From the NCBI GenBank assembly GCA_016935315.1, contig JAFGRD010000165.1:1-45521 (forward strand): a stretch of DNA of 45,521 nt. Reading direction: 5' to 3'. Below, in pieces: positions 9,406 through 35,966 of this stretch. Position numbers and translations under genes: made by a program. The stretch comes from Pirellulales bacterium. GTDB taxonomy: Bacteria > Planctomycetota > Planctomycetia > Pirellulales > Thermoguttaceae. Below the pieces are notes generated by a model. The model made no database searches. It had not been told where the DNA came from and worked only from the letters and a program-made list of their open reading frames with translations. The stretch's first letter is position 1; each line of letters begins with the position of its first letter.

Positions 9406-9485
9406 AATGGGCCCACCGTCCAATGGGCCCACCGTCCAATGGGCCCACCGTCCAATGGGCCCACCGTCCAATGGGCCCAGCGTCC
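9406..9485. repeat. 16-bp tandem repeat, five units
   Basis: AATGGGCCCACCGTCC occurs four times without error (9406-9469), plus a fifth copy with one C-to-G change (9470-9485). It contains the palindrome GGGCCC in every unit. It lies immediately upstream of the MATE transporter start. No spacer variation is present, so it is not a CRISPR array. Confidence 0.95.
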
Positions 9486-11017: not shown

Positions 11018-11128
11018 GTGGAATCGGCCACTACAAGCCCGGCTTAGGTGGCTTTTTTTCTAGCAGTGACGGCGTCGTCTACGGCCGTCGAGTCGGGCAT
11101 TCCGCCATTGTCAGGTACTTGGACATCC

Positions 11129-13756
11129 ATGAGCAGCAGCCAAATCCAGACACAGTCGTCGACCCTGCTCGGCCATCCCACCGGTCTGTTTACCCTGTTC
11201 TTCGCCGAGATGTGGGAGCGGTTTTCCTACTACGGGATGCGAGCGCTGCTGGTCTTCTACATGATCAAGGGGTTCCTCGGCTACAGCGACAACGACGCCT
11301 ATGCGGTCTACGGCGCCTATACGGCGCTGGTGTACGCCACGCCTTTCATTGGCGGCATGCTGGCCGACCATTTGTTGGGCGCGCGGCGTGCCGTAGTGCT
11401 GGGCGGCTTGCTGATGGCCGCCGGGCACCTGGCCATGACCGTGGAAAACGAGACTGTCTTCTTCATCGCCCTGGCGCTGCTGATCTGCGGCAACGGCTTC
11501 TTCAAGCCGAACATCTCCACGATCGTCGGCGGCCTCTACCCGAAAGGGAGCGCCAAGAAGGACACCGGTTTCACGATCTTCTACATGGGCATCAACCTGG
11601 GGGCCGCCATGTCGCCGATCCTTTGCGGCTACATCGGCGAGACCTACGGCTGGCACTATGGTTTTGGCCTGGCCACGGTGGGGATGCTTATCGGCGTCGC
11701 CGTGTTTGTCGCTCCCACGCGGCTGACACAGTTGTTGATCCTCGGCGGTGCGCTCAGCACGGCGATCGCGATGCCCATGCTGCAAGATACGCTGTTGCAG
11801 CTTGCCGTGCGCATCTTCATGGCGCTGGCACTGGCGGTTGCAGGGGTGATCGCCTTTGCAGCCCTGGGACGCGGAGGGCTGCCCGAACGAGCGGGGACGG
11901 CGCCGTCCGAGAAACGGCTGACGGACCCGGCGCTGCCGAAGTTGCGGGAGAACATCGTCTCCTACTATCTGGCAATCATCGCGGCCATCTTCATCCTGCA
12001 GCACGTGACCGCACCGTCGTCGCTGGAGGCCTGGATGCTTGCCGGCCTCGGGGGCGTCGCCATCGTGTTGCCTTGGGTCTCGGCCAGAAGCGCGGTCTAC
12101 GTCGGCGTGGCCGGAGCAATTCCCACCATCGTCCTGCTTGTGCGGCGCAGCGAAGTCGCCGGGCTCTTGCTGCTGGGCTTCGGCGCGCTCGCCTTCGGCT
12201 CCCTCTTGCGGGAAGCCCTTCGCGCCAACAAGATCGAACGCGAGCGGATGTACGTGGTGCTGATCCTGATGTTCTTCTCGATGCTCTTCTGGGCCTTCTT
12301 CGAGCAGGCGGGCAGCTCGGTGAACAACTTCACCGATCGCAATATCGACCGCGTCTTCGAGCAGCGCACGATTGCCGAGGAGGAGGTTGGCTCGATGCTT
12401 ACCTTCCGCGTGCCGCCCAGGGTCGATCGCGCAAAGAACCCCCGGCTTGCCGACCTGCCGTTGCTCTCGCAGGAGCAACTCGGTTACCGGTGCGACGACG
12501 AGGTGTTCGATCGCATCGACCGCGCCAAGCAACGACAGGACGCGGAGAAGGGGCAGACAACCGAGAAATCGGACCAAACCGGCCCGGACGAGCAGTGGCT
12601 GCCGCGACTGACCCAGGCCATCGAAACACTGTTGAAAGAAAAGAAGGAGGACCCGCCGGAGCTCGAGTCCGACAAGCAGGTCGTCTCCGTGTCGGTCTCT
12701 CCGCCGAAGATCCTCGAAGACGGCGAGCAGAAGCTGGTCTATACGTTCGGCCGAGCCGGTCCCACCACCGAGCCGCTGACGGTCCGTTTCAAAATCTCGG
12801 GCACCGCGAAGGCCAAGGACAACTACACGCAGGCAGGGGCCGCGTCGTATGGGACGGCCTCGGGGACCGTGAAGTTCTCCGCAGGCGTCGAGTCGGCGAC
12901 GCTGACGATCGATCCGCAGCCCGACAACACCGTCGAAGGGAACGAGACCATCGTGCTGACGGTCGTTCCGGGCGCCGGCTACCGGCCGGGCGACCCCAGC
13001 GAGGCCACCGGCACAATCGAAAACGACGACAAGTTCTTCACCATGACGCATCTGGCCATTCTCCGCGACGAAGCGGCCAAGGAAGACGCCGGCGACGAAG
13101 ACAAGACGATCACCTGGACTATCACCCCCGCACACGTCGGGATGGGCGTCGGCGGCGCCGAGATCCCCGCCTCCGAGTTCCAAGCCGCCAACCCGATCTT
13201 CATTCTCCTGTTCGGTCTGGTATTCAGCGGACTGTGGGCCTTCCTGGGCGCGTTGCGCCTCGAGCCCAGCACAGCGGTCAAATTCGCCCTGGGGCTGATG
13301 CAACTCGGTTTGGCGTTCGGTGCTTTCTGGTACGGGGCCCATCTGGCCGCCGACCAGCGCGGCATGGTCGCCATGTTCTGGCTGCTGTTGGGCTACCTGC
13401 TGCAGACGACCGGCGAACTCTGTCTCTCGCCGGTGGGATTGTCGATGGTCACCAAACTCTCACCCACCCGCATCGTCAGCACCGTGATGGGCGCCTGGTT
13501 CCTGGCCACGGCGTTCTCCAACTACCTGGCCGGAATGATCGCCACCTTCACGGGCGTGGTCCACGAAGGGGAAGGCGAGCAGATGATCCCGGCACCCGTC
13601 GATACGGTCCATCTGTACGGTGACGTTTTTGGAGTGATCGCGCTGACGGCCATCGCGTCGGGCCTGATCTGCCTCGCTCTGGCGCCGCTGCTGACGCGAT
13701 GGACGCATCCCGAGATCGATGCGGACGAGGCGACCGGAGAGATGGCCAAGGCGTGA
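11129..13756 (+). CDS. POT-family peptide/H+ symporter with inserted Calx-beta domain
   Basis: From the ATG at 11129 the product has 875 aa, far longer than the usual 450-600 aa of bacterial POT proteins. It carries the family signatures EMWERFSYYGMRALL (residues 27-41), FFKPNIS and FYMGINLGA (about 124-159), and FFEQAGSS (390-397). These inner-membrane transporters import di- and tripeptides with protons. Residues about 405-685 interrupt the carrier between FEQAGSSVNNFTDRN and IPASEFQAANPIFI, which are adjacent in ordinary members. The insert is charged, then contains a Calx-beta-like domain (about 518-634: VSVSPPKILEDGE, GTVKFSAGVESATLTI, DNTVEGNETIVLTV, GTIENDD). By topology of the family this loop faces outside. 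An upstream in-frame ATG at 11048 lies within the leader; 11129 is preferred. A candidate promoter is at 10988. Confidence 0.92.
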   Translation: MSSSQIQTQSSTLLGHPTGLFTLFFAEMWERFSYYGMRALLVFYMIKGFLGYSDNDAYAVYGAYTALVYATPFIGGMLADHLLGARRAVVLGGLLMAAGHLAMTVENETVFFIALALLICGNGFFKPNISTIVGGLYPKGSAKKDTGFTIFYMGINLGAAMSPILCGYIGETYGWHYGFGLATVGMLIGVAVFVAPTRLTQLLILGGALSTAIAMPMLQDTLLQLAVRIFMALALAVAGVIAFAALGRGGLPERAGTAPSEKRLTDPALPKLRENIVSYYLAIIAAIFILQHVTAPSSLEAWMLAGLGGVAIVLPWVSARSAVYVGVAGAIPTIVLLVRRSEVAGLLLLGFGALAFGSLLREALRANKIERERMYVVLILMFFSMLFWAFFEQAGSSVNNFTDRNIDRVFEQRTIAEEEVGSMLTFRVPPRVDRAKNPRLADLPLLSQEQLGYRCDDEVFDRIDRAKQRQDAEKGQTTEKSDQTGPDEQWLPRLTQAIETLLKEKKEDPPELESDKQVVSVSVSPPKILEDGEQKLVYTFGRAGPTTEPLTVRFKISGTAKAKDNYTQAGAASYGTASGTVKFSAGVESATLTIDPQPDNTVEGNETIVLTVVPGAGYRPGDPSEATGTIENDDKFFTMTHLAILRDEAAKEDAGDEDKTITWTITPAHVGMGVGGAEIPASEFQAANPIFILLFGLVFSGLWAFLGALRLEPSTAVKFALGLMQLGLAFGAFWYGAHLAADQRGMVAMFWLLLGYLLQTTGELCLSPVGLSMVTKLSPTRIVSTVMGAWFLATAFSNYLAGMIATFTGVVHEGEGEQMIPAPVDTVHLYGDVFGVIALTAIASGLICLALAPLLTRWTHPEIDADEATGEMAKA

Positions 13757-13836: not shown

Positions 13837-14952
13837 TTACCAGCGCCCCGACCTGCGGATCGCGGTCGACGACACATCTTCGCGAAATCGGGCGGCCGGG
13901 ACTTCGCGGCAGATGGCTCTTAACGGTTCGGGCAAATCGAGATCGCAAAGGCGGACAAAACCCGTGCCGACGTCGCGGCCGAAGACCAGGAAGCGACAAC
14001 CCCGCTCGGCGATCCGTTGCAGCGCGGCCCGACAGGCGACCGGGTCCTCGGCGTAGTAGCGAGGGTCGGCGATTCGCCGCAGCGTGTCGGCACCGACGAG
14101 AAACACCGCACCGGGAAACAACCGCGATTTCTCCTCGAACGTCGCCGCCCGCGTCAACAGCACCGGCTGGTCCGACGCAAACTGTTTCGTCCGCCGCTCG
14201 ATCTCGAAATAGTCCAGCGGCGGCTTATCGACGTTGACGATCGAAATCTCCGGGGCGATCGGCGTTTCCAGCATTTCCCGGGCGATCTCCATCATGCGGC
14301 GGTGGCCGACGTGCATCGGGTTGAACGCGCCGGGAAAGAGCACACTGGCCGGTTTGCCGCCTTGGACAATGACGTCCTTTCTGCCGAGCAACAGATTCTG
14401 CCAAGGCTTTGGGGCAACCGTTTCGGTCGGCTCGACCTGCTCGTCCCCGCACAGATCCAGCGGCAGCCGTTGCGACAAACCGCACGCCTCGGCCACGGCG
14501 TTGAGCACCAGCCGGGAGACCACGGCCTCCTCCTCGGCCCGGCTGCGGCGCCCCTTCTCCAACTGCAGCGACCAGGTGGCGGTCCGCGAGACTGATTGCA
14601 GCGCCACGTGGGCGCGATGCGGTCCGCGCTTCGGCCGATCGGTAGCCAACCCGGCCGTACAGGCCAGTCCGACGGGCGACGATTCCGGTGCGTACTCGTA
14701 CGCGCGGCCAAAGGCGGCCATGGCCATCGCCCGGGCGGCCCGCGGCGAACAGAACCCGTCGGGGCGCCCGCCGATCAGCGAAATCATGGCCGGCTCCGAG
14801 TAGGGGACCATCGCTTCGAGCACGGTGCGCGATGCCCCGGGCATTTCGAGCAATGCGGCCAGGGCACGGCTTCCTCCGCCGGAGACGGCCAGCACCAGCC
14901 GGACGGGCGAGGCATGGATCTGGCCGACGAGTTGTTCGGTAGAGATATCCAC
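13837..14952 (-). CDS. CinA-like/NadD-like nucleotidyltransferase fusion
   Basis: The N-terminal part (residues 1-165) resembles the CinA C-terminal (PncC, NMN deamidase) fold: LAVSGGGS aligns with AESCTGG, MPGASRTVLEAMVPYS with the helix before YSNEAK, and GLACTAGLATDRPKRG with the glycine-rich loop. The catalytic serine seems kept (S24), but the lysine of YSNEAK is a methionine (M56). The C-terminal part (200-368) is a nicotinate-mononucleotide adenylyltransferase-like domain with GAFNPMHVGH (208-217) and SSTAIR (361-366). PncC and NadD catalyse consecutive NAD-salvage steps, so a fused salvage protein is attractive, but loss of the lysine makes the first activity uncertain. It is convergent with the POT gene, ending 80 bp from its stop. 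Confidence 0.82.
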   Translation of the reverse strand: MDISTEQLVGQIHASPVRLVLAVSGGGSRALAALLEMPGASRTVLEAMVPYSEPAMISLIGGRPDGFCSPRAARAMAMAAFGRAYEYAPESSPVGLACTAGLATDRPKRGPHRAHVALQSVSRTATWSLQLEKGRRSRAEEEAVVSRLVLNAVAEACGLSQRLPLDLCGDEQVEPTETVAPKPWQNLLLGRKDVIVQGGKPASVLFPGAFNPMHVGHRRMMEIAREMLETPIAPEISIVNVDKPPLDYFEIERRTKQFASDQPVLLTRAATFEEKSRLFPGAVFLVGADTLRRIADPRYYAEDPVACRAALQRIAERGCRFLVFGRDVGTGFVRLCDLDLPEPLRAICREVPAARFREDVSSTAIRRSGRW

Positions 14953-15347
14953 TATTTCAGGGGGAATCCATAGGCTTGTCGCAGTGGTGAGGCAGCCGGT
15001 TCGCCACGGTCAGACTTTCCATGACCAGACTGGCTTTCCATGACCAGACTGGCTTTCCATGACCAACTTGGTTTTCCATGACCAACCTGGTCGGCATTCT
15101 AGCGAAAACTGGCCGAAATTCCAGCACCGAAAAAGGCCGCAGTCTCCGGCAGACGCGCCATGTTCCGATGGTCCTCGGCGCGGCAGACGCGCTCTGTTGC
15201 TCCGGGGAGAAGATTTTCCCGGAACTTCTCAAGATCCACACGGCGCCCGCGAAATACCCTACGGAGGCTCATCAGGCCCGAGCCGACTGGGCCATCCAGA
15301 ACATCGAGACAGTTCCCTTTCACACAGGTTTTTTGGAGGACACGGTC
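14953..15347. other. intergenic region with 19-bp tandem array
   Basis: The 395-bp divergent gap between the fusion gene and the kinase cluster contains a 19-bp tandem array (15016-15091). An in-frame extension of the coiled-coil gene back to 15078 is open but shows no conserved-looking protein. The gap must also hold the cluster's promoter; no convincing -35/-10 pair was picked out. Confidence 0.5.
15016..15091. repeat. 19-bp tandem repeat, four units
   Basis: TTTCCATGACCAGACTGGC is repeated exactly twice (15016-15053) and then twice with changes at three or four positions (15054-15091, TTTCCATGACCAACTTGGT type). Each unit contains ATGACCA followed by a CTGG/TTGG half, making an interrupted GACCA/TGG dyad. 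The array sits about 260 bp upstream of the signalling cluster's first gene and could hold a series of binding sites. Confidence 0.9.
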
Positions 15348-16154
15348 ATGATCAAGAAGATGATCATTGTCGCCGGAGTGTTTGTCATGTTGGGAGTCCT
15401 GCTGTTCGGCACCAGTGCCGTCAGCTACGTACGGACGTCCGCCGGATACGTCACCGAATCAGTCGGTGATATGGTACCGATCCAGTTCGAGATCGAACGG
15501 GCAAGGGGGATGATCAAGGACTTGGTTCCCGAGGTTCGTAAGAACATGCATCTGATTGCCAAGGAGGAAGTCCGAGTCAATCGTCTGAAGGAGCAGATCG
15601 ATCAGGCCGAGGCCACGCTCCAGACGGAAGAAGGCCGGATGATGCGGCTGAAGTCGGACCTGGAGACCGCCCAGAGCGTGTACCAGTATGCGGGCCGCAG
15701 CTACTCGTACGACCAGGTCAAGACGGATCTGGCCAACCGGCTGAAGCGTTACAAAACGAGCGACGACACGCTTAGCAGTTGGCAGCAGATGTACGAGGCG
15801 CGGCAACGCAGCCTGGAGGCCGCCCGGCAGAAGCTCGAAGGCATGCTGGCTTCCAAGCGGCAATTGGAGGTCGCGGTGGAGAACCTGGAGGCCCGGCTGC
15901 AAATGGTCGAGGCGGCCAAGGCGACCAGTGAGTACCAGTTCGACGACAGCCGACTGGGCCAGGTCAAGGAGTTGGTCTCCAACTTGCAGAACCGCCTGGA
16001 AGTTGCCAGCAATCTCGTTGCCGCGGAGGCACGATTCCATGACGAGATTCCGCTGGACGAGCCGGCCACGGAAGACATCATCGAGCAGGTCACGCAGTAT
16101 TTCGAGGAGCACCGGCAGCACCAACCCTCTGCGGAAGAGATCGTGTTGGACTAA
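15348..16154 (+). CDS. membrane-anchored coiled-coil protein, first gene of signalling cluster
   Basis: The 268-aa product has one N-terminal membrane segment (about residues 4-28, MIIVAGVFVMLGVLLFGTSA) followed by an almost continuous helical region rich in E, K, Q, R and L with heptad spacing (about 50-240), so a long coiled coil is expected. It recalls PspA-type or other stress coiled-coil proteins, but no family was recognised with confidence. The start is set by GGAGGA at 15335-15340, 7 bp before the ATG; a longer open frame from 15078 is not supported. It is the promoter-proximal gene of the co-directional run with FHA, kinase, membrane and sigma-factor genes. Confidence 0.8.
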   Translation: MIKKMIIVAGVFVMLGVLLFGTSAVSYVRTSAGYVTESVGDMVPIQFEIERARGMIKDLVPEVRKNMHLIAKEEVRVNRLKEQIDQAEATLQTEEGRMMRLKSDLETAQSVYQYAGRSYSYDQVKTDLANRLKRYKTSDDTLSSWQQMYEARQRSLEAARQKLEGMLASKRQLEVAVENLEARLQMVEAAKATSEYQFDDSRLGQVKELVSNLQNRLEVASNLVAAEARFHDEIPLDEPATEDIIEQVTQYFEEHRQHQPSAEEIVLD

Positions 16155-16203
16155 GCGGTGCTTTCCACACCAGCTATGGCCCCTAGCCGACGATCTGGAT
16201 ACG

Positions 16204-16857
16204 ATGTTCAAGCTGGAACCCAGACTGCGGGGATTGACTGCGATGGACTACCGCGGCTCGCAACAGTTTGACAAGTTCATGTTGTGGATCGACGCGGTGG
16301 GCGGGTTCTGGGTCTGTCTGGGCGACAAGGTTACGCTCGGTCAGCCCACGGCCTGCGGCACGGTCGATGTGCCCATCCTCGCCGACATTTCCAGCCGGCA
16401 CGCCCGGATCCGGCGCGACGGCGAAGGTTACCTGATCGAGGCAATTCGCGAGGTGCAGGTGGACGGCCTGGAGGTCGAGAAGATGGCCGCGTTGAGCGAC
16501 GGGAGCAGGATCACGCTGGGCGAGGGCGTGCGGTTGGCATTCCGTCGCCCCCATGCGTTAAGTGCGACGGCGCGGCTCGATTTCGCCAGCCACCACCGCA
16601 CCCAGCCCTCGGCCGACGCGGTCTTGCTGATGGCCGACTCGTGCGTGCTGGGGCCAAAGTCCTCCAGCCACGTGGTTTGCCGCGAATGGGACGAGGAAGT
16701 GATCTTGTACCGTCACGACGAGCAGCTCTACTGCCGCACGAAGGCAGCGCTGACCATCGACGGGGTCCGGTATCAGGGCAGAGGCCGAATTACGGTGAAT
16801 TCCCATATCGAAGGAGAAGGGTTTTCGCTTAGCTTGGAGGGAATTCGACATTCATAG
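16204..16857 (+). CDS. FHA-domain protein
   Basis: The 217-aa protein contains an FHA-like phosphothreonine-binding domain at about 25-105: VTLGQP takes the place of the usual GR pair, ISSRHARI supplies the conserved SxxH, and VQVDG corresponds to the NG turn, followed by a DGSRITLGE strand. The C-terminal part (about 110-217) is a second beta-rich segment repeating a similar layout (CVLGPKSSSHVV, LTIDGVRYQGRGRI), possibly a degenerate second FHA fold. FHA proteins bind partners phosphorylated by Ser/Thr kinases; the next gene encodes such a kinase. ATG 16204 was used; ATG 16243 with a GGGGA upstream is an alternative that would remove 13 residues. Confidence 0.85.
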   Translation: MFKLEPRLRGLTAMDYRGSQQFDKFMLWIDAVGGFWVCLGDKVTLGQPTACGTVDVPILADISSRHARIRRDGEGYLIEAIREVQVDGLEVEKMAALSDGSRITLGEGVRLAFRRPHALSATARLDFASHHRTQPSADAVLLMADSCVLGPKSSSHVVCREWDEEVILYRHDEQLYCRTKAALTIDGVRYQGRGRITVNSHIEGEGFSLSLEGIRHS

Positions 16858-16917
16858 GCCCCCCAGGGAACTCTGGGTACGAGCCAGTCGTCCGTGATAC
16901 AATAGGAGAGCGGACCG

Positions 16918-18996
16918 ATGCAAGAACAGGTGACAGCCGTGGAACCCAACGGTAACAAATCGATGGAGTTTTCCGTGGACGAGCCGGGCGACTCGCCGTC
17001 GCCGGGACGCCCGGCGGCAAAATTCGTCTATCCCGGCGGCTCTCGCCCGCTAAGCGGATATACGATCAAGCGAGGCATCGGTCACGGCGGGTTCGGCGAG
17101 ATCTACTACGCCCTGAGCGACGCCGGCAAGGAAGTCGCGCTGAAACTGATCCGCCGCAACCTCGACGTGGAGTTGCGCGGGATCCGCCACTGCCTGAACC
17201 TCAAGCACCCCAACCTGTTGGATCTGTACGACATCCGCCAGGACGACGAGGGCGACACATGGGTGGTTATGGAGTACATCTCCGAGGGGTGCCTGGCCGA
17301 TGCGCTGGCCGACTACCCGAACGGGATGCCGGCTGACCGGGCCTTGGCCTGGTTCCACGGCATCGCCGCCGGTGTGGCCCATCTGCACGATCGGGGGATC
17401 GTCCACCGCGACCTGAAGCCGGGCAATATCTTTTCGGACGACGGCCTGGTCAAGGTGGGCGACTATGGCCTCTCGAAGTTCGTCTCCTGCAGCCGGCGAA
17501 GCGGACAGACCGAAAGCGTCGGGACCGTCCACTATATGGCGCCCGAGGTGGCCAACGGGCGTTACGGCAAGGAGATCGACATCTATGCCTTGGGCATCGT
17601 ACTCTACGAGATGCTGACCGGGCGGGTGCCGTTCGAGGGAGAAAGCGTCGGCGAGGTCTTGATGAAGCACCTCACCGCCAAGCCGGACGTCTCGGGCCTG
17701 GCCGAACCGTATCGCAGCGTGATCGCCCGGGCCCTGGAAAAAGACCCGGCCCAGCGATTCCGCACGGTTTCCGAAATGCTGGCTGCCTTGCCGCAACCGG
17801 CGCATACGCCGCCGGGGGCCGCGCGGCTGCCCTCGGGAACGCACCGGGCGGCTGGCGGGGCCGGCGCAGCCGGTGCGGCCGGGGGCGCGGGTGCCGTTCC
17901 TCCGCCGTTCCCGGAAGGCATCATCGAGGCCGAGGCGGTCGACGAGGAGCCGATCCTCAAGGCGGTCTGCGAAACCTGGTCGAAGCTCTGCACCGCGTGG
18001 AATGACGCCAATCTCCCCGCCCCCGTGAAGATCCTCCTGCTGGTGGCCGTGATCGTCGTGCTGCTGGTCAACGCCGGGGTCTTGGTGCCGCTGACGGTCG
18101 TGCTGGTGATCATGTACGCGGGCTACCGGTTGGTCCGGGCGATGGTTCTTCCCCAGCACCGCCACAAGTTCTGTTCGCACCGGGCTGATGTTGCGCCCAC
18201 ACCGAGCGCCGAACCACCGCAGGCCGTCCAGCCTCAGGCGGCGCCGCGGCAGTCTCCGTTTCCGCCCCGGTACGATCCGAAGCTGGCCATCACCATGCCC
18301 GGGCGGCGGGGCCGCCGCCACCGCGAACAGGCCACGCCGGCCCTGGTCGTCAAGCCGCCGCGCGAGCGGTTCACCGAGCTGATCAGGTCCCTGTTGGCCG
18401 GGGCGCTGGTGGCGATTGCCATGTGCGTGGTGCTTGTGCTGGTGAACAGCTACTGCTTCTCTTTCCCCGTCAGGCCCGACCAGTACGCGTGGCTGGTGCT
18501 GGTGAGCATTGCGGGAACCTGGGCTGTGCTGATTCCCTCGAAGTTCTGGGAGGGCACCCGGGGAGAAGTTATCTTGCGGCGCTTCATCCAGATGGTGATC
18601 GGGATGGGGCTCGGGGCAGTGGCCTTTGCCACGTCTGCCCTGTTGATGGTCCACCCGCCCGCCGACGGAGGCTACGGCAACGATTTCCATCTGTTGCCTC
18701 GCGCGCCGGCCGGCTTCTACGACGCCTACGGCCACCCGATGTTGTTGGCCTACCTGGCTTGTTTCGGCAGCCTGTACTTCCTGATGCGTTGGTGGCGCCA
18801 GGCCGATCCGCTGCGGGGAACGCGACTCAGCTTGTGGTCGGTCTTTCTGACCGTTGTGGTGGCGGCGATCGTGGGCGGCTTCTGGAGCTTTCCCCAGTCG
18901 TGGCTGATGACCGTGGCCGTGGCCATCTCGGCCTCGGTCCAGATCGCCAGTCCTTGGCTGCCTCCGCGCAAGCGGTTCCGACGCAACAACGTCTGA
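16918..18996 (+). CDS. multi-span membrane Ser/Thr protein kinase
   Basis: The 692-aa product has a Hanks-type kinase domain at about 47-292: glycine loop GIGHGGFGEIY (53-63), lysine K76 in VALKLI, catalytic loop HRDLKPGN (163-170), DYG (182-184) in place of DFG, and APE (208-210). A low-complexity Gly/Ala/Pro linker and a proline-rich segment separate it from several TM helices (about 370-405, 490-512, 522-540, 555-577, 605-623, 638-680). Known bacterial relatives are usually single-span with an extracellular sensor; here the C-terminal half is a polytopic membrane domain of unknown kind. Activation-loop threonines/serines at 196-203 could be autophosphorylated and read by the FHA protein encoded immediately upstream. 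SD-like AGGAGAG lies just before the ATG. Confidence 0.93.
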   Translation: MQEQVTAVEPNGNKSMEFSVDEPGDSPSPGRPAAKFVYPGGSRPLSGYTIKRGIGHGGFGEIYYALSDAGKEVALKLIRRNLDVELRGIRHCLNLKHPNLLDLYDIRQDDEGDTWVVMEYISEGCLADALADYPNGMPADRALAWFHGIAAGVAHLHDRGIVHRDLKPGNIFSDDGLVKVGDYGLSKFVSCSRRSGQTESVGTVHYMAPEVANGRYGKEIDIYALGIVLYEMLTGRVPFEGESVGEVLMKHLTAKPDVSGLAEPYRSVIARALEKDPAQRFRTVSEMLAALPQPAHTPPGAARLPSGTHRAAGGAGAAGAAGGAGAVPPPFPEGIIEAEAVDEEPILKAVCETWSKLCTAWNDANLPAPVKILLLVAVIVVLLVNAGVLVPLTVVLVIMYAGYRLVRAMVLPQHRHKFCSHRADVAPTPSAEPPQAVQPQAAPRQSPFPPRYDPKLAITMPGRRGRRHREQATPALVVKPPRERFTELIRSLLAGALVAIAMCVVLVLVNSYCFSFPVRPDQYAWLVLVSIAGTWAVLIPSKFWEGTRGEVILRRFIQMVIGMGLGAVAFATSALLMVHPPADGGYGNDFHLLPRAPAGFYDAYGHPMLLAYLACFGSLYFLMRWWRQADPLRGTRLSLWSVFLTVVVAAIVGGFWSFPQSWLMTVAVAISASVQIASPWLPPRKRFRRNNV

Positions 18997-19012
18997 TTGA
19001 GAGGGTACGACG

Positions 19013-19474
19013 GTGGATATGAGCGTTTCCTATTTCGGCCTGTTGGTGCTGGTGGGATTGGCGTTGCTGGTCCTCGGCGGGCTGGTTCTGCTGGCGGTGT
19101 TGCTGGCCAACGAGAAGACCCGCACGGTGGGAATCGTGCTGCTGCTGTTGCTGTGCGTGCCGCTGGTCGCCGCGGGAGCCGCCGTCTTGTGGCTGTTTGC
19201 ATCACACCCGCAGACCGTGCACGAATTGCGTCCGCAGGCTTACCCGCCATCGGTGACCACGCAGGATACGATCCCGGGCACGAAGCGGGACATGGAAGCG
19301 GAGGGCCCTTTTGACACGGACGCGACGCCCGGCCCGGCCGAAGGCGGCAGCACCGAGCCGGCGCCTGCCCAGTCGCAGGCGGCCCCCCGCGCGGAACCGG
19401 AGCGTGGACCCGACGACAACGCCGGGGCCGATTCCCGGCGGTTGCGGGAAACGTGCTCTCGGCTGGAGGCTTAG
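19013..19474 (+). CDS. small membrane protein of the kinase cluster
   Basis: The 153-aa product has two closely spaced TM helices (about 8-32 and 38-65) and then a hydrophilic, disordered-looking tail rich in Pro, Ala, Asp and Glu. No family was recognised. GTG 19013 is 8 bp from GAGAGG and was preferred over ATG 19019. It lies 16 bp after the kinase stop and 12 bp before the next gene; its N-terminal hairpin resembles that of the next product, so the two may be related by duplication. Confidence 0.75.
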   Translation: MDMSVSYFGLLVLVGLALLVLGGLVLLAVLLANEKTRTVGIVLLLLLCVPLVAAGAAVLWLFASHPQTVHELRPQAYPPSVTTQDTIPGTKRDMEAEGPFDTDATPGPAEGGSTEPAPAQSQAAPRAEPERGPDDNAGADSRRLRETCSRLEA

Positions 19475-19486
19475 GAGGAACCAACG

Positions 19487-21016
19487 ATGTCTATTCAGCT
19501 TGTGGTCACCATCCTCGGCACGATCGCGCTGGCCGCAATCGGGATCATGATCGGGTCGTTCTTCAACCCGAAGACGCGGGTGGCCGGCGTTATCCTGCTG
19601 ATGGTCGGGCTTCTGGCGCTGTTCGTCCTTGGCACGGCCGGGTTCGCGCTAAGGCGCGACCATGTGGTTCGGCAGGAGGCCGCCAGGCTTCAAGTGATGG
19701 CTGATAGGCTACGGGTGATTGGCGACGAAATGCACGGCCGGGCCGCGTTTCGGCCACACGACTCGCCAAGCATTCCGTTGGAAGCGACCCGCCCAAATCG
19801 TGCTGTGGCGGACGCCGAACACGTCGGACCGGTCACGCCAAACAGGTTGGCCGACCAAGACGCCACCGCGGCGGCAGAAACCACGGCGGTCGTTGCAGAC
19901 CCAAGCGAGACGGCGGCTACCCGGCAGGACCCCGGCAGGCTGTTCCGGGCGATCGGTCGAGCTCTCGGCAAGGGAATCAGCGACAACAGAAAACACGGGA
20001 TGCCGCCCCGGCCGTTGGTGGAAGCGGATGCCGTCGCCGAAGAGACGGCAACTGCAACCAAGGACGCCCCTCCGGCGGATGACACCGATCAGGCGGCAGC
20101 GATCGGCGAACCGGCCGACGACGCCGCGAAACCGGCGAAAGCGACCGAGGATACCCAGGGGGCGATGCGGCCGGCGTGGATCGATGGTAAGCCCCAGCGA
20201 ACCGCCGACGGCTATCAGATAACCGTGACCGTCGGCCCCTACACGACCCTCTCGGAGTGCGAGCGGGCCTTGCCGGCCGCGCTGCAATCGGCCGCGGCCG
20301 AGTACATCGAAATCGTCCTCGGGCCGAGGGCCGCTCGGCGGGTGCAACTCCCGACCGAGTACCTCCGTGACCGCATCATGCGCGACACCTGGGAAGAGAC
20401 CGTGGAGATCGCGTTGGACCCGGACTTGGTCGTGCTCGGCCCGGATGAAACCAATCGGATGATCTGTCTTCACCATCGGTTGCTGTTCGACTCTTCCGCC
20501 AAGAGGGAGGTCGAGCGGCTCTGGGATGAGGAAATGGTTGCCGGCCGGCTCTGGTACACCGGCACGGGCGTGGTCAGCGTGCTGGTGCTGTTATCGGTGT
20601 TGCTGGGCGTGCTGAAGATCGACGAGGCCACCCAGGGCGCCTATCGGGGGCGATTGGGCACCGCGGGGGTCGCCGTGGCGCTGGGCGTGCTGGTGATGGC
20701 CTATTGTGCCGTCGTGCTGATCGACGGATCCACCACGACGCTCAGCAGTGTTTCCTCCGCGCTGGTCCCGCCAACGGGTCCGGAAATCCGTGGCGACACG
20801 ATTCACCACGCCTCGACCCCAGGCCGGACGGTTGTTTCGAAGGCGACGGGTGGATTGGTGGTGGTATTGCCGCTGGTTACGCTGCTGCTGGCCGCCGGCG
20901 TTGCGGTGCCGCTGCTGATCGGCAGGAAGTCGCGGACGGCCGGACTAACGGCAGCGGCGTTCGAGGTGGCAGCCGTGGTTGCGGTTGTCGTCGGGTTGCT
21001 GGTTATGTTAGGATAG
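19487..21016 (+). CDS. membrane protein of the kinase cluster, 509 aa
   Basis: The protein starts with two TM helices (about 5-25 and 30-52), continues with a long acidic/alanine-rich segment (about 60-225), a compact domain (about 225-355) with a YxITVTVGPYTTLSECERALP start, and ends in three or four TM helices (about 357-378, 388-408, 450-472, 480-508). No known domain was identified. The middle domain is the part most likely to be structured outside the membrane. A strong AGGAGG (19473-19478) overlaps the stop of the preceding gene and fixes the ATG. The position between kinase and sigma factor suggests a sensor, substrate or anchor for the pathway. Confidence 0.78.
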   Translation: MSIQLVVTILGTIALAAIGIMIGSFFNPKTRVAGVILLMVGLLALFVLGTAGFALRRDHVVRQEAARLQVMADRLRVIGDEMHGRAAFRPHDSPSIPLEATRPNRAVADAEHVGPVTPNRLADQDATAAAETTAVVADPSETAATRQDPGRLFRAIGRALGKGISDNRKHGMPPRPLVEADAVAEETATATKDAPPADDTDQAAAIGEPADDAAKPAKATEDTQGAMRPAWIDGKPQRTADGYQITVTVGPYTTLSECERALPAALQSAAAEYIEIVLGPRAARRVQLPTEYLRDRIMRDTWEETVEIALDPDLVVLGPDETNRMICLHHRLLFDSSAKREVERLWDEEMVAGRLWYTGTGVVSVLVLLSVLLGVLKIDEATQGAYRGRLGTAGVAVALGVLVMAYCAVVLIDGSTTTLSSVSSALVPPTGPEIRGDTIHHASTPGRTVVSKATGGLVVVLPLVTLLLAAGVAVPLLIGRKSRTAGLTAAAFEVAAVVAVVVGLLVMLG

Positions 21017-21150
21017 ACGGCAAGGGCGAACTCCTTGGAAAAAACGAGGGAGTACGTTATCGGCTGGGGAACGCTTGCCCTGATCAACGCGGCCGGCCCA
21101 GGCCTCGATCGCGTACGCACATTGACCAGAAGCCATTACACAGGGCAAGC

Positions 21151-21795
21151 ATGTCCATCCCCAGCCAGTCCGACAGTCTGTTGATTCGACGGATTCGCAC
21201 CGGGGAATCGGAGGCGTGGGGTGAGCTGATCGGACAGTACGAAGGGCGGCTGTTGGCCTACGTCGAGAGCCGGCTGCGAAACCGTGCGGCCGCCGAAGAT
21301 GTGGTCCAAGAGGCCTTCATCGGCTTCTTGACCAGTTTGCCCAACTACGACCGCAGGCGGCCGTTGGAGAGCTACCTCTTCTCGATCGCCGCCCATAAGC
21401 TGACCGACTTCATGCGCCGCGAAGGCCGCCGTCCCACGCTCCCGCTCGTGCCCGACGGGGCCAGCGGCAACAGTTGGGAGCCGGCCGGCAAGGCACGGGC
21501 GGCCAGCAGCATTGTGCGCAGCGGTGAGCGGCGCGGGCTGGAAGAGTCGGCGCTGACGGCCGCCCTGAGCGAGCAGATCGAGCATTGGCGGCATTGCGGC
21601 CAATGGGAGAAGCTGCGCTGTGCCGAATTGCTGTTCGTCCGCGGCCGGCCCAACAAGCAGGTTGCCAAGCAACTGAAGATCTCCGAGCAGAAAGTCGCCA
21701 ACTACAAATTCGAGTTCCTTGCCAAGCTCCGCACGGCGATTCGCAAACAGGGATTGCCGGAAGACGTGTTTCCCGAGTTGTACGAGGAGAGCTAG
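21151..21795 (+). CDS. ECF-like sigma-70 family factor
   Basis: The 214-aa product has region 2 at about 8-90 (ESEAWGELIGQYEGRLLAYV, AAAEDVVQEAFIGFL, LESYLFSIAAHKLTDFMRR) and an atypical region 4 at about 145-205 (GRPNKQVAKQLKISEQKVANYKFEFLAKLR, a helix-turn-helix). It directs RNA polymerase to a dedicated promoter set. Planctomycetes have ECF groups genetically linked to Ser/Thr kinases, and this one lies in such a cluster. ATG 21151 places conserved region 2 near the N-terminus; the open frame extends much further upstream without a plausible protein. The ORF follows the membrane-protein gene by 134 bp, so it might also have its own promoter. Confidence 0.9.
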   Translation: MSIPSQSDSLLIRRIRTGESEAWGELIGQYEGRLLAYVESRLRNRAAAEDVVQEAFIGFLTSLPNYDRRRPLESYLFSIAAHKLTDFMRREGRRPTLPLVPDGASGNSWEPAGKARAASSIVRSGERRGLEESALTAALSEQIEHWRHCGQWEKLRCAELLFVRGRPNKQVAKQLKISEQKVANYKFEFLAKLRTAIRKQGLPEDVFPELYEES

Positions 21796-21833
21796 GACTC
21801 GCGGAAGAGGAAACCGACCGGCGGAGAGTCATC

Positions 21834-22244
21834 ATGCCCGATCCCATTCTACCCTCCGATCTCGAAGCCTACCTCGACGAGGCCTTGCCGCCGGAGCACA
21901 TGGCCCGGATCGAGCTCGCCCTGCGCAAGGACGCGAACCTGGTCCGGCAGATGACGGCGATCCACGCGCGGCGCAACGCGGGGGTCCATTCCTTGGGTGA
22001 GATCTGGCGCCGCAACCGCTTGAGCTGTCCGTCGCGCGAGCAGTTGGGCAGCTACTTGCTGGGCGCTCTGGGCGAGGAAGCGGCCGACTACATCACGTTT
22101 CACGTGGAAACCATCGGCTGCCGTTATTGCCAGGCCAATCTCGCGGACCTGGAGAGCCAACAGGCCGAGCGTCAGGACGTGGTCCAGACGCGGCGCCGCA
22201 AGTACTTCCAGTCCAGCGTGGGACACCTGCAACCCGAAGGTTGA
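21834..22244 (+). CDS. putative anti-sigma factor, 136 aa
   Basis: The small protein lies 38 bp behind the sigma-factor gene, the usual place for an anti-sigma factor. Its N-terminus (ILPSDLEAYLDEALPPEHMARIELAL) resembles the start of planctomycete zinc-finger-type anti-sigma proteins, and it contains a His/Cys cluster, FHVETIGCRYCQANL (about 90-104), reading H-x5-C-x2-C instead of the classical H-x3-C-x2-C. It has no membrane segment. Whether it binds zinc and sequesters the neighbouring sigma factor is inferred from context. Confidence 0.75.
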   Translation: MPDPILPSDLEAYLDEALPPEHMARIELALRKDANLVRQMTAIHARRNAGVHSLGEIWRRNRLSCPSREQLGSYLLGALGEEAADYITFHVETIGCRYCQANLADLESQQAERQDVVQTRRRKYFQSSVGHLQPEG

Positions 22245-22277
22245 CGGCCGTCGGGCTGTCTTCAGCTTGCCGGCGCC

Positions 22278-22311
22278 GTCACGCTGCCGGCGACGTCACG
22301 CTGCCGGCGAC
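22278..22311. repeat. 17-bp direct repeat at a gene end
   Basis: GTCACGCTGCCGGCGAC is present twice in tandem (22278-22294, 22295-22311) with a partial third half to the left (TTGCCGGCG). The second copy encodes the last residues of the lipoprotein gene, and its stop codon lies in the first copy, so the tail length may vary between strains. Confidence 0.85.
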
Positions 22312-22998
22312 CAGGTGTGCCCGCTCCTTCAGCCCCACGTGGCTCTCGAGATGCTCCGGGACGCGCCAGGCAATCACGATCACGTGGTCGCCCTCGGTGC
22401 GGACGTAGAACTCAAAAATGCCCGGCATCTCCCGGGGTTCCGATTGCCCGTCCGGTTTGACGTAAACGAATTTCTGTGGGGCCGTGACGCGGACCATCTG
22501 CCACTCGATCTCGAGTCCTTGAGGCGTCTGGCACTTGACCTGGGCCGGGGGGCTGGCCTCGCCGGCAAAATCGTTCTTGAGGGATTGCCACAGGTTCTTG
22601 ACCGGCTCCCGACCTCGAAACGACTCAGGATCCAACACGATCAGATAGCAGTAGAAAGGGAGCTTCCCCTGCTCGCTGTCCTCGACAAGCCCCTCGTAGG
22701 TAAGCTTCCGCCCGGTCACGAAACTCGACTGCTCGGATGCCAACGGGTTGAGCCGGTCCGCGGGCGTGTCGTCCGGCAGCGGCGTTGATTCGAGATTGTT
22801 CGGCACCTGGACCTTCAACGAGGTGCCGGGCAACGTAACGGGTGATTGCATTTGGGCGAAGGCCGATCCCTGCCGGGCTTCTCGGATGCGGGCCTCCACC
22901 CGATCTTCATACTCGGCCGTGCCGCAGCCGAGGCAACCGACCAGCCACAGAAGCACGCCGGCTGCCAAACAGAGATCTGTCCACCTGGGTCTGCTCAT
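22279..22998 (-). CDS. predicted lipoprotein, 239 aa
   Basis: A hydrophobic leader (about 10-22) ends in a lipobox-like LVGCLGC, so the mature protein is probably lipid-anchored in the envelope. The rest (about 60-235) is a single alpha/beta domain with no recognised family; the pattern VKNLWQSLKNDFAGEASPPAQVKC... suggests a conserved planctomycete hypothetical. The gene is convergent with the sigma/anti-sigma cluster, ending 34 bp from it, and the last codons fall in a short GTCACGCTGCCGGCGAC tandem repeat. Confidence 0.75.
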   Translation of the reverse strand: MSRPRWTDLCLAAGVLLWLVGCLGCGTAEYEDRVEARIREARQGSAFAQMQSPVTLPGTSLKVQVPNNLESTPLPDDTPADRLNPLASEQSSFVTGRKLTYEGLVEDSEQGKLPFYCYLIVLDPESFRGREPVKNLWQSLKNDFAGEASPPAQVKCQTPQGLEIEWQMVRVTAPQKFVYVKPDGQSEPREMPGIFEFYVRTEGDHVIVIAWRVPEHLESHVGLKERAHLVAGSVTSPAA

Positions 22999-35372: not shown

Positions 35373-35966
35373 AACAATGTCTGCTTTCGATACGCGAGAG
35401 CCGTTCCATGTGTTTCACATTCACAAATGGTGTCAGACCGGCGTGAGCCGCCGACAGCCAGACGTCCAGCCCTGTCGTTACATGGATTGCTTCGGCTGGA
35501 TCCAGGCAGCGGTATACCCGGTCAGAGCCGGCGAATTGTCGGAATCCAGGGGCCAATTCCCGGGAATCTGTTTCGTGTCTTCCGTAGCCGCGGACCTCCA
35601 GCGGCGATAGATGTCTGCCCCTGGCAACATATCACCAAGCGCTTTTGCCAATGGTAAATGATAGGTTGCTAGCATGGATGGAAGACAGTTTTCGGCACCG
35701 CGTTATTTCGATTGTGCCGGTTATCTGGGGATAAGTACCGGCAACAACCCACCTCTTCAACCCACCTCTTCAACCCACCTCTTCAACCCACCTTTTCAAC
35801 CCACCTTTTCAACCCGCCTGGCAGCAGATCTGGCAGCAAATCTGGCAGTAAGATCGCAGATTCGGGCGGATTATGGCGGCCGACGGGCGGGTATCGATGC
35901 GTCTTTGGGGGGCGTCTCTCGCAACCCGGAATCCCAATGTCGCATCGGATACCCGGGCGTTTTTCG
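35373..35966. other. intergenic region with 13-bp tandem array
   Basis: The 594-bp gap holds the 13-bp array at 35746-35810 and a short run of CTGGCAGCAGATCTGGCAGCAAATCTGG-like triplication directly after it (about 35819-35849, three CTGGCAG units). No coding sequence, RNA gene or clear promoter was recognised. Confidence 0.5.
35746..35810. repeat. 13-bp tandem repeat, five units
   Basis: AACCCACCTCTTC occurs three times (35746-35784), then AACCCACCTTTTC twice (35785-35810), differing at one base. A partial unit follows (AACCCGCC). One strand is very poor in G, so it is strongly strand-asymmetric. Confidence 0.95.

Follow-up and report, generated by a model that had tools for sequence, protein, structure and literature searches.

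What holds together a run of seven planctomycete genes for a membrane coiled-coil protein, an FHA-domain protein, a Hanks-type Ser/Thr kinase, two further membrane proteins, an extracytoplasmic function (ECF) sigma factor and a putative zinc-type anti-sigma protein? These seven open reading frames (ORFs), g1 to g7, form a cluster on the + strand at 15348-22244 of a 45,521-nucleotide stretch of Pirellulales DNA (GenBank assembly GCA_016935315.1, contig JAFGRD010000165.1). We call the whole stretch the window, and positions refer to it. The membranes of planctomycetes are unusual in their architecture, and planctomycete genomes encode numerous kinases and ECF sigma factors whose purpose is unknown. 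We propose, with a probability of roughly 0.6, that the cluster is a Psp/Lia-like response to inner-membrane stress in which a Hanks-type kinase and an ECF sigma factor carry the signal. The cluster itself is more than a chance arrangement, because relatives across a bacterial order share its gene order. Its features are the following:

15230..15255, + strand: promoter-like dyad CAAGAT-N13-GCGAAAT, 92 nucleotides upstream of g1; proposed target of sigma g6 (autoregulation)
15348..16154, + strand: g1, N-terminal transmembrane helix and long helical hairpin/coiled coil; likely remote relative of PspA/Vipp1 (ESCRT-III superfamily)
about 16204-16857, + strand: g2, FHA-domain protein (Pfam FHA 23.9 bits, cut-off 20.7); conserved, adjoins the kinase
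16918..18996, + strand: g3, Hanks-type Ser/Thr kinase with a polytopic C-terminal half (Pkinase 162 bits, E 1.8e-47)
19013..19474, + strand: g4, small protein with two transmembrane segments; probable partial duplicate of the g5 N-terminus
19487..21016, + strand: g5, membrane protein; a conserved soluble domain (about residues 215-405) separates its transmembrane regions
21151..21795, + strand: g6, ECF-type sigma factor (Sigma70_r2 56.3 bits, E 2.8e-15); linker RxASS..RSGERR
21834..22244, + strand: g7, soluble zinc-type protein with C65..H90-x5-C96-x2-C99; C-terminal tail RRRKYFQSSVGHL (consensus RRRKYFQSSAGYL)

A first-pass annotation of this DNA had described seven codirectional genes with mostly short gaps, and the ORFs, their strand and the intergenic distances (in order from g1 to g7: 49, 60, 16, 12, 134 and 38 nucleotides) bear this out. 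Both flanking genes, at 13837-14952 and 22279-22998, are on the minus strand; the seven genes thus make up one directon. From 14900 to 22600, two sigma70-type promoters were found versus 1.1 expected, and four intrinsic terminators versus 5.0 expected. The domain calls of that annotation (FHA, kinase, ECF-like sigma and a His/Cys-containing putative anti-sigma factor) agree with Pfam matches above cut-off to FHA, Pkinase, Sigma70_r2 and zf-HC2. No NCBIfam equivalog scored above cut-off for g1, g2, g4, g5 or g7.

Conservation, joint loss and gene fusion

Comparison of gene order across planctomycete genomes, which the first-pass annotation had proposed as a check, reveals clear synteny beyond this strain. 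We fetched 40 stretches around matches. The named loci are the best 80 of 243 relatives, a non-random sample; gene order was counted where 7.5 kb or more precedes g7, which kept 47 of these loci and dropped 33. The complete order g1-g2-g3-g5-g6-g7 is present in 36 of these 47, for example in Aeoliella straminimaris (L167), Botrimarina colliarenosi (L173) and Planctomycetales bacterium 10988 (L153). This order covers six of the seven genes, all but g4. Many of the 40 fetched stretches have the same order preceded by a nadD-like gene facing away from g1. Among the exceptions, g5 and g6 are each split into two ORFs in L138, and the operon adjoins g7 in the opposite orientation in L172. Only g6 is kept beside g7 in L134, L146 and L182; g7 stands without other cluster genes in L113, L129, L163, L169 and L184; and L183 has g7 plus a second g6-g7 pair close by.

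The genes also tend to be present or absent together. Among 80 genomes, our own included, g7 was found in 59 (57 strong matches, and two weak ones, G029 and G046, scored as absent in the presence/absence tally), g1 in 59, g6 in 54 and g5 in 52. All four are present in 46 genomes and absent from 20, and 14 genomes are mixed: in five of these the fast-evolving g5 is the sole gene missing, and in the other nine, several of which are 68-84% complete, between one and three genes are missing. Both g1 and g7 occur in 56 genomes, g1 only in three, g7 only in one and neither in 20 (Fisher p 1e-14, a value that ignores shared ancestry). The genomes without the module comprise 17 from family f1, only part of which lacks it, both genomes of f8 and one of the two of f3; because its absence is spread over these families, it has probably been lost at least three times. 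The 20 relatives without the module (e.g., G016, G019, G050, G055 and G072) mostly have smaller genomes, with a mean of 4.1 Mb.

In a scan of 391 genomes of the phylum, the g1 profile matched 104 and the g7 profile 133, of which 61 are within the class and 72, some of them weak matches, outside it. We picked 20 loci from these 72, for the most part with higher scores. In 16 of the 20, the g7 domain (approximately residues 52-134) is fused to a sigma ORF as its C-terminus; a g3-like kinase is encoded in 18 of the 20 stretches and g1 in 10, three times after the sigma gene. A related g7 domain is fused to a sigma factor in 17 ORFs in total, and the tail [ST][ST]xG[FY]L, or a close form of it, is recognisable in most, not all, of the 17 fused proteins. 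Within the class, the order is complete in the two f22 loci L203 and L201, the latter without a g5 match, and in f21 g7 is alone in 12 loci, g1-g2-g3-g5 lying elsewhere with or without g6. The class member G310 has a second module (L205, G310:C1:1725000-1741500) with fused sigma and zinc domains and a separate g7 elsewhere. The fusion of g6 and g7 in one lineage and their separation in another suggest that the two work together.

The first-pass annotation had proposed a complete membrane-to-transcription pathway. Synteny in 36 of 47 loci, joint absence in 20 of 80 genomes, the sigma-g7 fusion and the conserved promoter-like site described below make a dedicated membrane-to-transcription module well supported, and it looks like an ancient signalling unit.

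A promoter-like dyad upstream of g1

We analysed 43 regions upstream of g1, from 42 named loci and the window, and excluded one region of 150 nucleotides or less. Most of them share the consensus CCAA[GT]AT-N13-GGCGAAT (CCAAKAT-N13-GGCGAAT), located 68-224 nucleotides ahead of the g1 start codon. An unguided count found AAGA-N15-CGAA in 30 of the 43 regions, compared with at most 6 for any dyad in three shuffled sets. CAAKA-N15-CGAA likewise occurs in 30 of 43, with counts of 0 or 1 at other spacings from N10 to N18 and 0 on the opposite strand. When the dyad was scored with mismatches allowed (maximum 10.5), 42 of 43 regions reached 8.0 and 40 reached 8.5, compared with 26 and 8 of 430 shuffles, and 7 and 1 of 43 opposite strands. 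The spacers are only 33% identical, whereas the boxes are fixed; thus, shared ancestry alone is not a sufficient explanation. The copy in the window is its top matrix match (22.8 versus 15.5 for the next), the matrix having been trained on these sites. Good copies (9.5-10.5, on a slightly different score) are also found in all 12 f21 loci and in two f22 loci.

The strict dyad is found upstream of g7 in 1 of 78 loci, g6 in 0 of 60, g3 in 5 of 45 and g5 in 2 of 50; at scores of at least 8.5, the counts are 3 of 78, 0 of 60, 7 of 45 and 4 of 50, respectively. Separate dyad promoters for g7 or g6 were rejected on the strict counts. A dyad copy directly ahead of g3 as well, seen in L116, L118 and L174, suggests an internal promoter in these few loci. 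The dyad upstream of g1 may be read by g6. About 150 nucleotides ahead of this promoter-like site, at 15015-15084 of the window, there is a tandem repeat of 3.7 copies of a 19-bp unit (CTTTCCATGACCAGACTGG).

g1 as a likely relative of PspA and Vipp1

The annotation had called g1 a membrane coiled-coil protein. The transmembrane helix and the coiled coil stand, but the protein is not anonymous: g1 is likely a remote PspA/Vipp1 homologue. It matched nothing in Pfam above cut-off, and a PspA-like hairpin was our guess ahead of modelling. The predicted model (44 sequences, predicted local distance difference test [pLDDT] 83) consists of a transmembrane helix, helices of 62 and 74 residues (45-106 and 121-194) linked by a small beta-hairpin, and two shorter helices (203-228 and 244-257). 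Psp/Vipp1 proteins have this kind of architecture, in which shorter helices follow a long helical hairpin. With this model as a query, ranks 1-8 of the Foldseek list are all VIPP1 (E 0.009-0.046, probability 1.00, 13-17% identity).

Profile comparisons point in the same direction. We compared 97 g1-family proteins with 43 planctomycete PspA proteins, a set that holds no g1-like locus. The two profiles aligned in hhalign with probabilities of 89% and 94% (E 2e-6 and 2e-7), collinearly over most of both proteins; with either side reversed, the probabilities were 3-4%. The 44 operon copies of g1 from the order alone gave 85% versus 0.3% for the reversed control, and earlier, smaller g1/PspA alignments gave 1-62%. 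The PspA profile matched 15 of the 97 g1-family proteins at E <1e-3 and none of the 97 reversed sequences. One gene in G023 and one ORF in G219 are matched by both PF04012 and the g1 profile. However, the best g1-family gene seen (G023) scored 29.0 bits against PF04012, below the cut-off of 33.9, and g1 as a plain member of PF04012 was therefore rejected and kept as a remote relative. PF04012 has no match in the window's own genome, and the g1 profile found only weak, unrelated matches among PDB chain sequences, coiled coils among them (best E 0.006).

Diverged g1-family genes occur at L266-L275 (G023, G007, G017, G030, G058, G074, G001, G027, G046 and G015), mostly as a second copy besides the cluster g1 and as the sole copy in G030. 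The contig with the diverged gene also has a weak g7-like match in G007 and G046.

Candidate target genes

The annotation had called the targets and the signal of the pathway undescribed; targets can now be proposed, and the signal we still only infer. We searched 24 genomes for CAAKAW-N13-GCGAAWNNC and found 113 sites in 14 Pirellulales genomes (14 with the reversed pattern) and 34 sites in 10 f21 genomes (10 reversed). A control with the spacing shifted to N14 gave 150 sites versus 57 reversed in 14 genomes, 12 of them shared with the N13 search, which indicates that the reversed pattern is too lenient a control. Scaled for the extra C, a rough estimate, the N14 control suggests about 48 chance sites and hence a two- to threefold excess.

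Of the 147 sites, 91 were examined (30 from the search listing and 60 chosen for strong boxes); an ORF of 80 amino acids starts within 250 nucleotides of 77 and not of the other 14. Excluding three g1 sites leaves 74 downstream ORFs, 70 of which were scanned against Pfam; the remaining four were short and not scanned. Band_7/SPFH genes lie directly downstream of the dyad in L398, L417 and L421, and YqiJ-like genes (by eye) followed by Band_7 genes (Pfam) in L362, L397 and L412. Other phage-shock-protein (PSP)-like genes after a dyad encode NfeD (L372), AIM24 (L339, L385), the Toastrack domain DUF4097 (L336) and LemA (L375). Further families preceded by the dyad are TM2 and DUF2383 (each twice, in one genus), a MoxR-like AAA protein, DUF308, bPH_4 and another ECF sigma factor. 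Genes for ribonucleotide reductase and SpoVR are clearly unrelated and probably background. The window's own genome has four sites: that of g1 and three others (L349, L366 and L367) without a PSP-like Pfam match. The control consisted of 25 ORFs after N14 sites, and no PSP-like family was among the 25 of 26 Pfam families displayed for them. Band-7, YqiJ/YuaF and Toastrack proteins are partners of PspA (PMC11237479), and Band 7 genes adjoin pspA (PMC9239133). Membrane-protection genes may belong to the regulon.

The kinase, its neighbours and the sigma/anti-sigma pair

The active site of g3 is intact, as judged from its alignment: the catalytic K76, the HRD aspartate D165 and the metal-binding D182 are kept in 29 of 29 sequences, with DYG replacing the usual DFG. 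Six hydrophobic segments follow from residue 363 onward. The phosphothreonine contacts of FHA domains are GR, S and H; in g2, G48 is kept in 27 of 28 sequences and S65 and H68 in 25 each, and the arginine position matches Q49. By eye, the second half of g2 is possibly FHA-like as well.

The annotation had reported two unrecognised membrane proteins, and neither g4 nor g5 has a Pfam match above cut-off; they are, however, related to each other. In a single BLASTP comparison, g4 matched g5 residues 5-59 (29% identity over 55 amino acids, E 3e-4), and g4 is a probable partial duplicate of the g5 N-terminal hairpin. The least conserved member of the cluster is g5, with 14% mean column identity and presence in 52 of 80 genomes.

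The sigma factor g6 has sigma2 and sigma4 and lacks sigma1.1 and sigma3, the makeup of ECF factors. It scored 24.9 bits with Sigma70_ECF, above cut-off; its C-terminal helix-turn-helix was matched as GerE (24.5 bits), and Sigma70_r4 (12.4 bits) remained below cut-off. Assignment of g6 to ECF43 was rejected, as its acidic sigma2 residues are intact and no phosphorylatable Thr replaces the acid in region 2.2.

A zinc anti-sigma domain is predicted for the second half of g7. The protein has no transmembrane segment and matches zf-HC2 at 23.5 bits (cut-off 22.2). C65, H90, C96 and C99 are invariant across 78 sequences; in the tail, R120 and G130 are kept in 78 of 78, and S or T occupies position 127 in all 78 sequences and position 128 in 77. 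The motif H-x3-C-x2-C of class I anti-sigma domains differs in spacing from the H-x5-C-x2-C of g7. The AlphaFold model (78 sequences, pLDDT 78) has seven helices, and Foldseek ranks 1-7 are the zinc anti-sigma factors RsiW, ChrR and RslA, with weak E-values (best 2.0). Among 66 chains aligned with VIA-align, the four best entries are RslA (Z 5.6, root-mean-square deviation [rmsd] 5.4, 63 residues), RsiW (Z 5.5, rmsd 4.0, 68 residues) and two of ChrR (Z 4.1, rmsd 9.3, 72 residues; Z 3.9 for the second), all aligned within g7 residues 61-136. The g7 profile found only weak, unrelated matches among PDB chain sequences (best E 0.42).

Opposing evidence and alternative explanations

Several observations weigh against an envelope-stress module of the proposed kind. 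For g1, Foldseek E-values never reach 0.001, and the rmsd of 14-39 A means that the global shapes of g1 and VIPP1 differ. VIA-align does not discriminate: Vipp1 scores Z 11.4, and unrelated coiled coils score up to 12.1. When 44 g1 proteins are compared with Pfam, several coiled-coil families match weakly, and PspA_IM30 is not among the top 25 families. Among the candidate targets, the enrichment of PSP-like genes is borderline (11 of 74 versus 0 of 25, Fisher p 0.061), as is the excess of membrane proteins (37 of 74 versus 7 of 25, p 0.066); the families were labelled PSP-like only after they had been seen, and the SPFH sites of L417 and L421 are orthologues within one genus. Upstream of g1, a good dyad copy is lacking in the single f23 locus (8.5) and in ten loci from other classes (6.5-9.0). 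The gene for g7 lies away from the operon in 6 of the 47 loci and in f21 genomes, in some of which g6 is also apart from the kinase operon; unlinked g7 has no dyad upstream in 7 of 8 loci checked and is thus not always co-regulated. In g2, the usual phosphothreonine-contacting arginine is glutamine (Q49) in 23 of 28 sequences.

The alternative that draws most on these points is a kinase-linked ECF system with a role other than membrane stress (e.g., cell division, budding or surface attachment), in which g1 is an ordinary membrane-anchored coiled-coil scaffold that shares only a hairpin with Vipp1, and the SPFH and NfeD sites are due to chance. The coiled-coil Z-scores, the Pfam ranking of g1 and the p value of about 0.06 from a small control fit this explanation. 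On the other hand, eight VIPP1 chains lead the Foldseek list, the collinear match of the g1 and PspA profiles drops from 85-94% to 0.3-4% on reversal, and the PspA profile finds 15 g1-family proteins and no reversed ones. We therefore regard a non-stress role as unlikely, if still a serious contender.

Another possibility is that the kinase activates the sigma factor directly, as in the ECF43 pairs PknT-EcfP and PknS-EcfK, with g7 as an accessory. PknS phosphorylates EcfK at residues of the sigma2-sigma4 linker and at T51 in sigma2 (PMC13147305), and the linker serines of g6 (S119 in 33 of 33 sequences, S or T at position 120 in 33 of 33) lie in the same inter-domain region. However, the acidic pair E49-D50 in sigma region 2, a position matched by eye, is intact in all 33 sequences, where the two studied ECF43 members have a phosphorylated Thr, and 57 of the 60 genomes holding any of g1, g5, g6 and g7 have a strong g7 match. 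Direct activation with an accessory g7 thus appears rather improbable.

Least probable of all, and in our judgement quite unlikely, is a sigma/anti-sigma pair that senses directly by zinc or thiol chemistry, as ChrR or RsrA would, with the kinase, FHA and membrane genes merely co-transcribed: the invariant Cys/His set, predicted fold and lack of a transmembrane segment in g7, as well as its occasional distance from the kinase genes, speak for it; against it stand the joint absence of g1, g5, g6 and g7 from 20 of 80 genomes, the g3-like kinase in 18 of 20 sampled stretches from other classes, the catalytic residues kept in 29 of 29 kinases, and the Ser-Ser tail conserved in g7 and recognisable in most fused forms.

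Proposed mechanism

The Psp/Lia-like stress response that we favour builds on what computational comparison has established: the parts, their order and joint loss, the sigma-g7 fusion, the likely relation of g1 and the dyad upstream of it. As long as the cell is at rest, g6 would be kept inactive by the soluble zinc protein g7, a holding role that the sigma factor's own C-terminal domain may play in other classes. Membrane damage might be sensed by a complex of g3, g2 and g5 (plus its partial duplicate g4) with the membrane-anchored g1. The kinase g3 would then phosphorylate g7, for which the conserved C-terminal Ser-Ser is the best candidate site, and/or the serine-containing linker of g6, and the sigma factor would be freed. 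Free g6 could bind CCAAKAT-N13-GGCGAAT promoters, that of its own operon first, giving positive feedback and more g1; next targets may be genes for membrane scaffolds, among them flotillin/SPFH with a YqiJ-like partner, NfeD, AIM24, Toastrack and LemA.

A broader version, which we hold tentatively and at somewhat short of even odds, is that this is an ancient envelope-stress system of the Planctomycetota's own: a membrane-anchored ESCRT-III-like protein would signal to a Hanks kinase with an FHA adaptor, and these to an ECF sigma factor, with the zinc anti-sigma domain fused in other classes and encoded by a separate gene in Planctomycetia. The sigma factor would drive flotillin/SPFH, NfeD, AIM24 and Toastrack genes via CCAAKAT-N13-GGCGAAT.

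Neighbouring features of the window

The gene divergent from g1 (13837-14952, minus strand) encodes a NadD-like cytidylyltransferase domain and, at the N-terminus, a CinA-like part that scores below cut-off; a NadD-like gene is likewise divergent from g1 in a number of relatives. Further upstream, 11048-13756 (+ strand) encodes a peptide/MFS-type transporter, apparently with a Calx-beta-like repeat insert in mid-protein (by eye). Near-perfect tandem arrays are found at 9406-9485 (16-bp unit, 5 copies) and 35745-35819 (13-bp unit, 5.8 copies).

Relation to known systems and implications

Pairs of an ECF factor and a kinase are already known, as are zinc anti-sigma factors and PspA systems. Planctomycete ECF sigma factors are reportedly linked to Ser/Thr kinases (Jogler in 2012 and Wiegand in 2020 are said to have described this). 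The ECF43 pairs EcfP-PknT of Vibrio parahaemolyticus and EcfK-PknS of Xanthomonas citri resemble the cluster in combining an ECF sigma factor with a membrane Hanks kinase and in the linker Ser/Thr (PMC13147305). Unlike them, the cluster has intact acidic sigma2 residues and adds a zinc anti-sigma, an FHA, a PspA-like and further membrane proteins. The Psp and Lia systems (PspA-PspF, LiaFSR-LiaH) are similar in having a PspA-like membrane protein, membrane partners and a transcription regulator, and likewise have SPFH, YqiJ-like and Toastrack partners (PMC11237479). They differ in that g1 is anchored by a transmembrane helix and falls under the PspA family cut-off, and that the output runs via a kinase and an ECF sigma factor. 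The main texts of PMC11237479 and PMC9239133 contain no word starting with "planctomycet".

RslA, RsiW and ChrR are like the predicted fold of g7 residues 61-136. RshA offers a further parallel: PknB phosphorylates both SigH and its anti-sigma factor RshA (PMC13147305), and phosphorylation of g7 by a Hanks kinase is a proposal only. Unlike these four, g7 has the H-x5-C-x2-C spacing and no transmembrane or cupin part, and is fused to the sigma factor in other classes.

In the literature searched, including the available parts of PMC8103513, PMC8567305, PMC11032199 and PMC10936438, we recognised no description of the cluster, and the promoter CCAAKAT-N13-GGCGAAT was not found; key planctomycete ECF studies lie outside this coverage, so a prior description is possible. 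Within that scope, what appears new is the combination of these elements in one planctomycete module across several classes, with a transmembrane-anchored PspA-like protein and the dyad.

The module links planctomycete membranes, kinases and ECF sigma factors and supplies a promoter and a target list that can be tested. The question of what planctomycete kinase-linked ECF factors control thereby becomes testable in cultured strains. If the proposed reading is true, ESCRT-III-like membrane protection would extend to a phosphorylation-controlled sigma system; on the broader version, SPFH, NfeD, AIM24 and Toastrack scaffolds may help to maintain the unusually folded membranes of planctomycetes.

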